A stretch of DNA of 64,000 nt from Marinitoga sp. 38H-ov (GTDB taxonomy: Bacteria > Thermotogota > Thermotogae > Petrotogales > Petrotogaceae), in assembly GCF_011057715.1 (NCBI RefSeq), contig NZ_LNGH01000016.1, positions 1 through 64,000 of the forward strand, read 5' to 3'. The translations under genes and the position numbers were made by a program. This document shows, one piece after another, positions 42,222 to 53,845 of the stretch (the first letter of the stretch is position 1; every line of letters starts with the position of its first letter). The notes below the pieces were generated by a model. It made no database searches and was not told the origin of the DNA. It saw only the letters and a list, made by a program, of their open reading frames with translations.

Positions 42222-42278
42222 TTTTTACATAAATAGTTCTTTTGTTACGTTTGAAAATTCACAATTAATATTAAAGTA

Positions 42279-42307
42279 TTGAAACTTAACATTTATTTTT
42301 GTATACT
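42279..42307 (+). promoter_or_regulatory. Strong promoter of the candidate small RNA
   Basis: TTGAAA (42279-42284), exactly 17 bases, TATACT (42302-42307). Predicted transcription start at about 42312-42314. There is no open reading frame between it and the terminator 60 bases later. Confidence 0.75.
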
Positions 42308-42311
42308 ATAG

Positions 42312-42391
42312 ATGTAAAAAGAAAATCCCCCTATCCCCCCCTGAAATAGATGGATAGACATTTAACGGATCCTTTGGATCCGTTTTTTTTT
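42312..42391 (+). ncRNA. Candidate small RNA with C-rich anti-Shine-Dalgarno tracts
   Basis: About 80 bases between a near-consensus promoter and a strong terminator. From 5' to 3' it has an A-rich single-stranded start, TCCCCC (42326-42331), then a hairpin CTATCC / GGATAG (42331-42336 and 42352-42357) whose loop holds CCCCCTG, a short linker, and the terminator hairpin at 42365-42383 with nine T residues. The only open frames are ATGTAA and a 16-codon frame running through the terminator without a ribosome-binding site. C-rich loops of this kind in other bacterial small RNAs pair with ribosome-binding sites. It could instead be the 3' end of the MMPL operon transcript, which would use the same terminator. 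Confidence 0.6.
42365..42391 (+). terminator. Terminator of the small RNA / MMPL operon
   Basis: ACGGATCC-TTT-GGATCCGT perfect 8-bp stem followed by a run of T residues. Confidence 0.92.
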
Positions 42392-42428: not shown

Positions 42429-44066
42429 ATGAAAAAGTTAAAATTTATTTTATTTTCTTTATATATATTTATTATAATCACATTATTTACTTTTATAATT
42501 TTTATATACAGCGAAGTAAAAACATATAATCAAAATATTGAAAGAAATTATGTTAGAAATTTTATTATACAAACTGATAAAAAGATAATAGAAAATGTAT
42601 ATAATTATATTAAATATAATTATTTTAATTTTAAACCATTTCATATTATTATAAAAAAAAGCAATAATATATCTGACATAGAAAATAAAGATGGTTTAAT
42701 AACAAAAAATATTGAAGTTGATAATAATATATATGAATTTAGTTATTCCATTGAAGATTACTTAAATTATATTAAATTATTTACTGGAAAAGATATTATT
42801 ATATATTATAATAATAAAACTTACCCGGTTAGTATTAATTTAAATAACTTAAATAATAAACTGTCAATTAATTATGAAAACATTGATTTTTATATTTTAA
42901 ATACTAATAATTTTAATGAACGATATTCACATTTTTTTATGACTATTTTAGTATTAATATTCATAGTATTATACATAATTATTCATAGGATTTATTATTA
43001 TTCGAAATTAGATATATTAAATATCATTGAATTTATAAACAAAAGAGATGATAATATAAAATTAAATACCCAAGAAGGAAATATATTAAAAGAAAATATT
43101 ACAAAAATAATTGATAAAAATAAAAAATTAGAATCTATTTCAGAAGACTTAAAAAATGAATTTAATAAAAATATTGAAAGATATAATAATATAATAAATG
43201 ATTTTATTATTGATATTAGTAATAAGCTCCAAAATATTTCAAATTATATTTACCTTCCTAACAAAAACAAAGAAGAAATAATAAATAAAAATATTAATGA
43301 ACTTTCTAATATAATAGATAAATATATAATATTACTAGATTTCAAACAGAAATTAGAAAATGATATAGAAAACTACGATTTTTTTAACTTGGATGAATTA
43401 CTTAATGAAATAATATATTATTTATCACAAAATTTATATAATATTACCATTAAAAAGCAAAATAACTTGATTAATAATATTATTTTTGGAAATAAAAAAT
43501 TAATTTATTTATTATTATATGATATCTTAGTTTTAATATTATCCAACAAGTCTCATGGAAATATTATTTTAAAATATTATGTGATAGATGGAGAATTAGA
43601 AATAAAAATTATAGATGAAAATAATATATATAATGAATATTTAATATTACTAAAAAACAAATCCAATCATCTAAATATTGATTTAATATATAAATATTTA
43701 AATAATCTTAATGGTAATATATATATAAATCAAGATAGTAAAAATAATATAATTATAATTAGAATACCTATTAGTATAATAAATTTTCTAAATAAGTATG
43801 ATTTTAAAAAGCTATTTAAAAATTATACTTTAGAATTAATAGAAAAAAAATATACATTAAATAAAGCAAATATATATATAAATGAATTATTATTCTCATA
43901 TATAGAAACACTAAAAAATCCTACCTCTGAAAATGTTGAAAAAATCAAAAAAATTCTTAAAGATCATAAATTTGATTTATTAAATAATCTTTTAGATTAT
44001 ATTATACAAAATAATGATGAAAAAATTAGAAATTTATTAATTTCAAAATTAAAAACAGGAGGATAA
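42429..44066 (+). CDS. Degenerate sensor histidine kinase-like membrane protein
   Basis: A 545-aa protein unusually rich in Asn, Ile, Lys and Tyr. Two transmembrane helices (about 5-27 and 168-190) flank an extracytoplasmic domain of about 140 residues. A coiled-coil region (about 205-265) is followed by a segment where a DHp domain should be; there SNKLQN stands in the position of the usual SHELRTP, so the phospho-acceptor His is missing. A later region (about 355-455) has the strand-helix pattern of an HATPase domain (SNKSHGNIIL, ELEIKIIDENN, a final NIIIIRIPI strand), but the N-box Asn and the DxGxG glycines are not recognisable. A C-terminal helical extension of about 90 residues follows. 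The homology is inferred from pattern only. It is monocistronic, with no adjacent response regulator. Confidence 0.5.
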   Translation: MKKLKFILFSLYIFIIITLFTFIIFIYSEVKTYNQNIERNYVRNFIIQTDKKIIENVYNYIKYNYFNFKPFHIIIKKSNNISDIENKDGLITKNIEVDNNIYEFSYSIEDYLNYIKLFTGKDIIIYYNNKTYPVSINLNNLNNKLSINYENIDFYILNTNNFNERYSHFFMTILVLIFIVLYIIIHRIYYYSKLDILNIIEFINKRDDNIKLNTQEGNILKENITKIIDKNKKLESISEDLKNEFNKNIERYNNIINDFIIDISNKLQNISNYIYLPNKNKEEIINKNINELSNIIDKYIILLDFKQKLENDIENYDFFNLDELLNEIIYYLSQNLYNITIKKQNNLINNIIFGNKKLIYLLLYDILVLILSNKSHGNIILKYYVIDGELEIKIIDENNIYNEYLILLKNKSNHLNIDLIYKYLNNLNGNIYINQDSKNNIIIIRIPISIINFLNKYDFKKLFKNYTLELIEKKYTLNKANIYINELLFSYIETLKNPTSENVEKIKKILKDHKFDLLNNLLDYIIQNNDEKIRNLLISKLKTGG

Positions 44067-50831: not shown

Positions 50832-52076
50832 TTATATTACATAACCTCCTGAAGGAACATCACCATTTATTTCTGTTACATAATTTCCTATCACAACATT
50901 TTTACCTATTGTTATGTTTGACGGTATTTTTGAATTAAAACCTATTAACGTTAAATCTGAATTATATATTTTCTTATTATATTGACTTTCTTTAAATTCC
51001 CCTATTCCTATTTTTACATTTTCTCCTATTTCAGTATTTTCAGCAATAATAACTTTTTCAATATATGCGCCTTTTTTAATAATACACTTATTCATAATAA
51101 CTGAATCTTTAACAATTGCTCCTTCTTCTACTATTACTCCTTGAAACAATACCGAATTATGAACCTCTCCATGTATTTCGCAACCTTCACTAATTAAAGA
51201 ACTACTAAGTTTCGCATTATTTGATACAAATGATGGAGGTAATTCCTCTGATTGAGTATATATTTTCCAATTAATATCATGGATATTTAATAATGGCAAT
51301 GGCCCTAATAGCTCCAAATTTGATTCCCAATACGACTCTAATGTACCGACATCTCTCCAGTAACCTTCATAATTATATGCAACTAAATTATTTTTCTCTT
51401 CTAACATTTTTGGTATAATATTTTTACCAAAATCATGTTCTGAATTAGGATCATTTGCATCGTCTATTAATAATTGTTTCAAAACATTCCAAGAATACAC
51501 ATAAATACCTAGAGAAGCTAAATTACCGCGCGGCTCCTTGGGTTTTTCTTGGAATTCTACAATTTTACCAAAAGAATCTGTTACCATTATTCCAAATCTA
51601 TGTGCTTCATTTATTGGAACCTCCATACAAGCTATAGTAGCATCTGCATTTTTTTCAATATGAAAATCTATCATCTCATTATAATCCATTTTATATATAT
51701 GATCACCAGATAAAATCAATACAAAATCAGGATCATAATTATCTATGTATTCTATATTTTGATATATTGCATCAGCCGTTCCCATATACCATGATTGATC
51801 TGTACTACTTACATATGGAGGTAAAATTGTTAATCCACCTGTTTTTATATCTAAATCCCATGGTCTCCCTATTCCTAAATGTTTATTCAATACGTGAGGT
51901 CTATACTGTGTTAAAACACCTACATTGTATATTCCTGAATTTACACAATTACTTATAGCAAAATCAATTATTCTATATTTACCTCCATACGGAACAGCTG
52001 GTTTAGCTAAGTACTCAGTTATAACTCCTAATCTAGTACCTTGTCCGCCAGCTAAAATCAAAGCTACAACATTCAT
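50832..52076 (-). CDS. glgC: Glucose-1-phosphate adenylyltransferase, catalytic subunit
   Basis: Makes ADP-glucose from ATP and glucose-1-phosphate, the committed step of glycogen synthesis (414 aa). N-terminal nucleotidyltransferase domain with the intact [11 protein letters not shown] motif, [15 protein letters not shown], the [10 protein letters not shown] metal-binding segment and [10 protein letters not shown]. The C-terminal left-handed beta-helix shows hexapeptide repeats (about 290-400). The ribosome-binding region TAAGGGGGGATTTTTA is unusually G-rich and is complementary over 10 bases to the candidate small RNA at 42312-42391. Confidence 0.96.
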
Positions 52077-52089
52077 TAAAAATCCCCCC

Positions 52090-53202
52090 TTATATAATCG
52101 ATCCTTTTTCTATCAATATTATTTCATTTTCACCAATTATTTTCCTTCCTTCTCTAATTTCACAATCTTTATCTATAATTGCATTCCTAATAACAGTTCC
52201 TTCTGATATAATTGTATCTTGTAATATTATCGAATTTTCAACAACTGCTCCTGCTTTTATCTTTACTCCTCTTGATATTATAGAATTCTTAACAAAACCA
52301 TTAATTATTACACCATCAGCAATAAAAGCATTTTCTACCTTAGCATTTATATTTATTTTAGGTGGAGCATAATCTTTTAATTTTGTATATATTTTTTTAT
52401 TATAAAACAGTTCTCTTCTAATTTCAGATTTTAATATATCCATATTAGTTTGATAATATGTTTTTATAGATTTTTTTATATTTGACCAATAACCTTTAAA
52501 ATCATATGCATAAACCCTTAATTTTTCTAAGTTTGGAATAATTACATCATGAACAATATCTGTACCTCCATTAGGAACTGTAGAATATAATAATTCCATT
52601 AAAAGAGATTTATTTATAAAATAAATCCCTAATGATATTCTATTAGATTTTATTTCCTTTGGTTTTTCATAAAATTCCAGAATTCGTCCCTCTTCATTTA
52701 CAACTACTTGACCAAATGTATTTAAAAGTTCCTTATCTTCAAATTCTTTTGTTAATATAGTAATATCTGCACCATGAGATAAATGATATCTATATAATTT
52801 GTTAAAATCAAAATTATATATATGATCTCCTGATCCTATTAAAACAAAATCTTCGTCTCCTCTTCTTAATAAAGTCATATTTTGAAATATTGCGTCAGCT
52901 GTACCTTTATAAACTGGTATTTCATCCTTACTTTTAAAATATGGTTGTAATATAAATAAACCACCTGTTTTTCTATCTAAATCCCATTCCTTTCCACTGC
53001 CTAAATGATCCATAAGGCTCCTTGGATAATATTGAGTTAAAACACCTACCTTTTTTATTTTTGAATTTACAAAATTACTTAAAGTAAAATCAATTGCTCT
53101 ATATTTTCCAAAAATAGGTACTGCAGCACTTGCTCTTTTTTGAGTTAATTTTCCTATTCCACTTTTAGATGATCCAGCTAAAATTAATCCTAATACTTTC
53201 AT
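52090..53202 (-). CDS. glgD: GlgD, regulatory subunit of ADP-glucose pyrophosphorylase
   Basis: A 370-aa paralogue of GlgC. The fold is retained (nucleotidyltransferase domain, then beta-helix), but the catalytic GGQGTRL motif is replaced by SSKSGIGKL, as in GlgD proteins that form a hetero-oligomer with GlgC and tune its activity. [10 protein letters not shown] and [10 protein letters not shown] are still visible. I chose ATG 53202, preceded by GAGGGGGATTGATAAA, over an ATG 30 bases upstream that overlaps the neighbouring gene. glgC follows 13 bases later. Confidence 0.92.
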
Positions 53203-53206
53203 TTTA

Positions 53207-53845
53207 TCAATCCCCCTCAAGAATTTTATCAAATTCCTCTTCTAAATGCTTTAACTTATCTATATCATTTTCTAATATTTTAGGATATAAATAATCAATA
53301 CCAAAAAGTTTTAATTTTTTTGATATAATAATCTTTAAATACGGATATTGAAATAATAGCTTAAGATTTTTCAACATTTTTTTATATGCAAATTTAAAAT
53401 CAATATTTATTTTAAATTCATTTTTTAATACTCTATTAAATTCCGTTGATATCTTTTCTATATTATTTACTTTAAGTATTTTCCACCATTTGTTTTCTAT
53501 AAAATGATTGCCTATAAATCTTAAAGATAGGATTTCATCAAAATTATATTCAAATTTCGTATGCAATTTAGATTCCGAGTAATATATATTTATTATTGGA
53601 TGTAATTTCTCATCTAATTCCATATGGGATATAAATCCATTATAATATCCTTCTGGAAAATTTTTCATTAATTCTTTATAATCAGATATGCTTAATTCGT
53701 GCAATTTATTCCCAATTTCTCTATATTTATTATTATTTACATAAAAAAATATATCTGGTCCTTGTGCTCCCAAATATAATTCTGGTCCCCATAATTTATA
53801 ATTATCTTTCATAGAATAAATTATATGTGCTAATATGCTTGGCAC
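53207..53845 (-). CDS. Zinc-dependent phospholipase C-like domain protein
   Basis: A 212-aa protein. PSILAHI at the N-terminus, LGAQGPDIFFY near 27-37, a His in GNKLHEL, and HMELDEKLHP near 74-83 match the pattern of the zinc-dependent phospholipase C (S1/P1 nuclease-like) superfamily, which binds zinc through His and Asp residues. No signal peptide is seen, so a secreted lipase role is unlikely. Start is GTG 53845 overlapping the upstream stop (TAGTG). Substrate unknown. Confidence 0.65.
   Translation of the reverse strand: MPSILAHIIYSMKDNYKLWGPELYLGAQGPDIFFYVNNNKYREIGNKLHELSISDYKELMKNFPEGYYNGFISHMELDEKLHPIINIYYSESKLHTKFEYNFDEILSLRFIGNHFIENKWWKILKVNNIEKISTEFNRVLKNEFKINIDFKFAYKKMLKNLKLLFQYPYLKIIISKKLKLFGIDYLYPKILENDIDKLKHLEEEFDKILEGD

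Follow-up and report, generated by a model that had tools for sequence, protein, structure and literature searches.

A candidate C-rich small RNA family of the Thermotogota with predicted pairing to Shine-Dalgarno sites

Does a short interval beside an MMPL protein gene of Marinitoga sp. 38H-ov hold a small RNA (sRNA) gene of its own and, if so, what might that RNA do? The interval lies in the window, by which we mean the whole stretch of 64,000 nt analyzed here (contig NZ_LNGH01000016.1, positions 1 to 64,000). A first-pass annotation had claimed an independent sRNA gene at this place, linked to the MMPL operon and analogous to the C-rich sRNAs that bind Shine-Dalgarno (SD) sequences. Such sRNAs are established in other bacteria (PMC9410917, PMC8216469). 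Based on comparative sequence analysis, we consider it likely that the locus encodes a trans-acting sRNA of about 80 nt, a member of a nearly phylum-wide family, that represses mRNAs by pairing with their G-rich SD sites.

Layout of the locus

The elements that had been described for the locus were all present. The promoter TTGAAA-17-TATACT occupied positions 42279-42307, with its -35 box (TTGAAA) at 42279-42284, a 17-bp spacer and its -10 box (TATACT) at 42302-42307. The terminator, described as strong and ending in a T-run, had a perfect stem (AACGGATCC-TTT-GGATCCGTT, 42364-42384) followed by that run. The two C-tracts, CCCCC at 42327-42331 and CCCCCCC at 42335-42341, were separated by UAU. 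No open reading frame of at least 50 aa overlapped 42279-42391. The 5' end of the RNA probably lies near 42313-42315, that is, 6-8 nt past the -10 box. The features of the locus are the following:

42236-42307, plus strand: conserved upstream region that extends into the promoter and carries GTTAC/TAAT/TTAAC boxes at a spacing of about 21 nt (alignment A1, 19 genomes)
42279-42307, plus strand: sigma-A-type promoter, TTGAAA-17-TATACT, its position kept in 19 aligned family members
42313-42391, plus strand: small RNA, about 78 nt long, its 5' end predicted (homology searches, fold, alignments, covariance model)
42326-42352, plus strand: C-rich core UCCCCCUAUCCCCCCCUGAAAUAGAUG (alignments A2 and A3, tabulation)
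42332-42358, plus strand: genus-restricted hairpin CUAUCC/GGAUAG, whose 3' arm and following bases, GGAUAGACA, are predicted to pair with a permease leader
42364-42391, plus strand: intrinsic terminator, CGGATCC/GGATCCG and T-run, its stem retained in 19/19 family sequences with compensatory changes

The 80-nt sequence folded at -18.3 kcal/mol (z = -3.1 versus shuffles). A 53-nt profile of the upstream region had no other site in one complete relative, in which it scored 21.6 bits and the runner-up 7.6 bits.

Conservation and genomic setting

Conservation of the C-tracts in close relatives had been named as a test of the locus, as had a covariance search of the Thermotogota. The C-tracts were indeed conserved, far beyond the genus. 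Searching 21 family genomes at the nucleotide level (E <= 1.3e-5), we detected the element in the window's genome and in 18 of the other 20, and the copies in six other species of the window's genus were near-identical (6/6). The family copies had in common AUCCCCCUAU-C(5-7)-UGARAUA, the -35/-10 arrangement, the upstream boxes and the terminator. The hairpin CTATCC/GGATAG, which had been presented as part of the predicted RNA, stood in the seven genus members, the window's copy included, and failed as a defining form, since 12 of the 19 family sequences, all from outside the genus, break it. A shorter UAUC/GAUA hairpin with a C-rich loop was predicted in most copies (single folds) and read UUAUUC/GGAUAA instead in two genomes; it is nearly without variation, so covariation cannot test it. 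When folded as a consensus, the phylum alignment A3 (MAFFT) gave zero pairs, probably because MAFFT had misaligned the differing terminators; single folds do give the terminator hairpin.

We built a covariance model from 19 family sequences and ran it on 103 Thermotogota genomes. Matches of about 30 bits or more were obtained in 85 of these genomes, with all 11 families represented (count from the score table); the remaining 18 genomes scored below about 30 bits and were counted neither as carrying nor as lacking the RNA. About 50 of the matches were inspected by eye. The core CCCCUAU-C(5-7)-U(U)GA-R-AUA was near-invariant across the phylum (alignments A2 and A3), and promoter and terminator co-occurred with it in other genomes. 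Copies of the Thermotogales type had the sequence (A)CCCCCCUAUCCCCCUUGAGAUACACCCCCCAC(GGCUUU), with a terminator of family-specific sequence after it, and in these genomes about 30 nt were nearly invariant, the non-C positions UUGAGAUACACCCCCCAC included.

Comparison beyond the Thermotogota consisted of an exact-pattern scan of a species-genome collection, which returned 32 loci, and of model scoring of pattern-preselected loci. The exact-pattern matches outside the Thermotogota look like chance, at no more than 26 bits with the model: this was the best score among 29 loci not labelled Thermotogota, which had been preselected for the C-tract pattern, with locus L081 set apart. That locus (L081:5329-5406), on the Bacillota-labelled contig JAMOAB010000007.1 (Bin_63), carried a full Petrotogaceae-type copy scoring 93.8 bits, and the contig is most likely a mislabelled metagenome bin.

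The genes adjoining the RNA varied among genera and often lay on the opposite strand. In the window's genus they encoded an MMPL and a hypothetical protein, in Petrotoga-like genomes PHP-domain and gamma-carbonic-anhydrase-like proteins, in other genomes chemotaxis-receptor-like and radical-SAM-like proteins, and elsewhere MnmE-like, MurA-like, MiaB-like or phosphate-permease-like proteins (names read off the protein starts). With different neighbors in other genera, the supposed link to the MMPL operon found no support. At the level of sequence comparison, the RNA gene was shown to be free-standing, with its own promoter region and terminator and with neither a conserved neighbor nor a conserved reading frame; promoter, terminator and conservation together support the earlier claim of an independent sRNA gene.

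Some observations concern the neighboring genes themselves. At G007:C17:95192-97464 (L038), the MMPL gene was broken by several stop codons and the adjoining RNA was intact. The 545-aa protein encoded downstream of the RNA (window 42429-44066) had no relative in the genome collection, and the protein at the same place in genus relatives was strongly diverged.

Three other accounts of the locus can be weighed against this conservation. The locus might act in cis, as a leader or attenuator of the gene that follows at 42429, rather than give rise to a free RNA, as the terminator lies about 40 nt upstream of a start codon in the window; a second promoter-like sequence, TATAAT, directly follows the terminator. 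We consider this account very improbable and largely refuted by the downstream genes, which change from genus to genus and frequently have the opposite orientation; in addition, the terminator stem was unbroken in all family copies that we examined, and no competing stem was conserved among them. That the RNA encodes a short peptide is hardly credible, although the window copy does allow a TTG-started frame of 16 codons. The C-tract is 5, 6 or 7 nt long among relatives, which shifts the frame from one to the next and therefore leaves no conserved reading frame or peptide, and neither the start codon nor a ribosome site was kept among them; the peptide account is thus refuted.

Finally, the locus could be an accident, the tail of the MMPL operon with its terminator and a fortuitous C-run. 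Promoter-like sites and C5 runs, taken individually, occurred in the window at about the expected frequency: there were 119 promoter-like sites against 113 expected and, on both strands, 21 C5 runs against 25.7 expected under a first-order Markov model, so that C-runs are not rare in this AT-rich DNA, contrary to the earlier assertion. Terminator-like sites numbered 9 against 3.6 expected. Promoter, terminator and C-run are each feeble evidence on their own, and paired C5 tracts no more than 12 nt apart alone were unusual (1 observed, 0.125 expected). The locus is nevertheless far above chance because it is conserved, in 18 of 20 other family genomes and 85 of 103 genomes of the phylum. This phylum-wide conservation, independent of MMPL, refutes an accidental origin and leaves it a negligible probability. 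The case for selection had earlier been made from composition; that argument fell, and its conclusion stood on conservation at the family and phylum levels.

Candidate targets and proposed mode of action

To look for targets, we calculated duplexes of the core with positions -40 to +20 of every start in a complete relative from the same genus (G009). The 2112 genes screened came from a home-made gene caller, and they were ranked by energy alone in this single genome, a ranking to be read with caution since any G-rich SD pairs with a C-rich RNA. In this genome, 235 of 735 GGGGG words lay inside SD windows, compared with only 2 of 735 for CCCCC; a C5 tract is therefore unusually well suited to reach ribosome sites.

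The start of an NCS2 permease gene (Pfam Xan_ur_permease) ranked first of the 2112, at -40.4 kcal/mol, with the next at -31.7 kcal/mol. None of 154 shuffles that kept the C-tracts (25 + 129) reached -40.4 kcal/mol; the set of 129 had a mean of -30.7, an sd of 2.1 and a best value of -39.0. The permease leader, UGUCUAUCCAAAUCUUWUUUAGGAGGGG, was kept in 7/7 species of the genus (its first U absent in two), unlike the intergenic DNA upstream of it, which varies; in the window's genome it lies at G000:C8:42946. Duplexes with the leader alone had energies of -33.7 to -35.7 kcal/mol, and those with paralogous permeases -15 to -20 kcal/mol. The permease gene is located directly 3' of three xanthine-dehydrogenase (xdh) subunit genes. 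Within this permease/xdh operon, four starts took ranks 1, 33 (xdh FAD), 46 (fdrA-like) and 79 (xdh 2Fe-2S) of 2112.

Further high-ranking starts belonged to a second xdh cluster, a nucleoside hydrolase and RapZ (Pfam), and to four apparent glycogen genes (named from protein starts). Iron-sulfur functions were not enriched among the predicted targets. The window itself contains glgC and glgD (about 50832-53207, minus strand), with two possible target sites:

52077-52090, minus strand: AGGGGGG, SD sequence of glgC; G-rich SD in 7/7 genus members
53200-53216, minus strand: GAGGGGGAUUGAU, SD sequence of glgD; G-rich SD in 7/7 genus members

These G-rich SDs were kept in genome G018 too, and the glgD SD of Petrotoga-like genomes was of another type, not G-rich. 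Permease orthologues outside the window's genus had no pairing site. Across the phylum, the pattern CAAGGGGGATA occurred near ATG at 29 sites versus 8 in a reversed control, an excess that SD preference alone could explain. Comparative support for a predicted target is limited to the permease at the genus level, and the NCS2 xanthine/uracil permease is the best-supported candidate target in the window's genus.

On the model that we favor, in which the RNA represses by SD pairing, it would be transcribed under its dedicated signal and held through its U-rich tail by Hfq, which is encoded in 21/21 family genomes. The C-tracts, displayed as an unpaired seed or loop, would pair with the G-rich SD sites (GGGGG, AGGAGGGG) of selected mRNAs, and the pairing would block ribosome binding and repress the mRNA. 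At the permease leader, GGAUAGACA of the sRNA would pair with UGUCUAUCC and the C-tract would cover AGGAGGGG. This predicted pairing is kept in seven species. The analogy to C-rich SD-binding sRNAs drawn earlier is supported.

The strictness of the core counts against SD pairing as the full account, since it exceeds what pairing with many changing SDs needs. An alternative that we regard as unlikely is titration, with the invariant core bound to a single constant partner such as an RNA-binding protein or the ribosome. Speaking for it are the roughly 30 nt that are near-invariant among Thermotogales-type genomes, including the non-C positions UUGAGAUACACCCCCCAC that are unnecessary for SD pairing, and the recurrence of the short UAUC/GAUA hairpin with its C-rich loop. 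However, complementarity of the core to rRNA or RNase P RNA was no greater than that of shuffled cores, and the long pairing to the permease leader beat all shuffled controls. More tentatively than the repression model, we suggest that the RNA might date from the common ancestor of the phylum with a core of 20-30 nt near-frozen, its strictness reflecting either a constant partner (a protein or the translation machinery) or a fixed core regulon, in contrast to an ordinary sRNA that evolves fast.

Related RNAs and significance

Other C-rich RNA genes were observed as well. A second C-rich RNA gene, consisting of UACCCCUAUCCUCCUUAAAAUAAA and a terminator, was found in the window's genome at G000:C11:90807-90873 (minus strand, L145) and also at L141-L147; this RNA of the window's genome and genus relatives is probably a paralogue, and its AUCCUCCUU resembles the anti-SD end of 16S rRNA. 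Another class, found in Kosmotogaceae-like and other genomes (L151, L154, L155, L157 and L160), carried GACCCCCCUAUCCCCCCUUGGAUAG and its own terminator; in several copies an AGUGC/GCACU-type stem encloses the sequence. Upstream of a uracil permease gene in two genomes (L281 and L285), we noted a AGUCCAGNGAGGCU-like sequence, which presumably resembles the PyrR binding loop.

Searches against Rfam 15 at gathering and relaxed thresholds returned no family that reached threshold, RsaE/RoxS and FsrA included; the best sub-threshold match was MicF, at 21.8 bits versus the 79 needed (E 0.45). Like RoxS/RsaE and FsrA of the Bacillales, the Thermotogota RNA is short and has C-rich, putatively unpaired regions and its own terminator (PMC8216469, PMC9410917). 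Those RNAs target SD sites of metabolic mRNAs, and SD pairing is what we predict here (PMC8216469, PMC9410917). In contrast to them, it has a core, CCCCUAUCCCCCUUGAGAUA, that in our searches was seen in Thermotogota only, and it had no sequence match in Rfam 15. IsrR of Staphylococcus carries three C-rich regions, and the G-runs of its AT-rich genome are mostly SD sites (PMC9410917); it is Fur-controlled, and we found no homology between it and the Thermotogota RNA. The T. maritima transcriptome of Latif et al. (2013) includes 13 putative ncRNAs without structure or family (PMC3636130), and the C-rich RNA may have been one of these. For Thermotogae, a survey from 2022 gives just one annotated sRNA (PMC9029176).

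With this family, the deep-branching and largely thermophilic Thermotogota gain a concrete, testable sRNA, together with Hfq and a named candidate for its target. Base-pairing sRNAs are usually fast-changing. An sRNA with a near-fixed core over most of a phylum would belong to the most deeply conserved regulatory RNAs, housekeeping RNAs aside, and the family opens the question of how SD pairing might work at high temperature.
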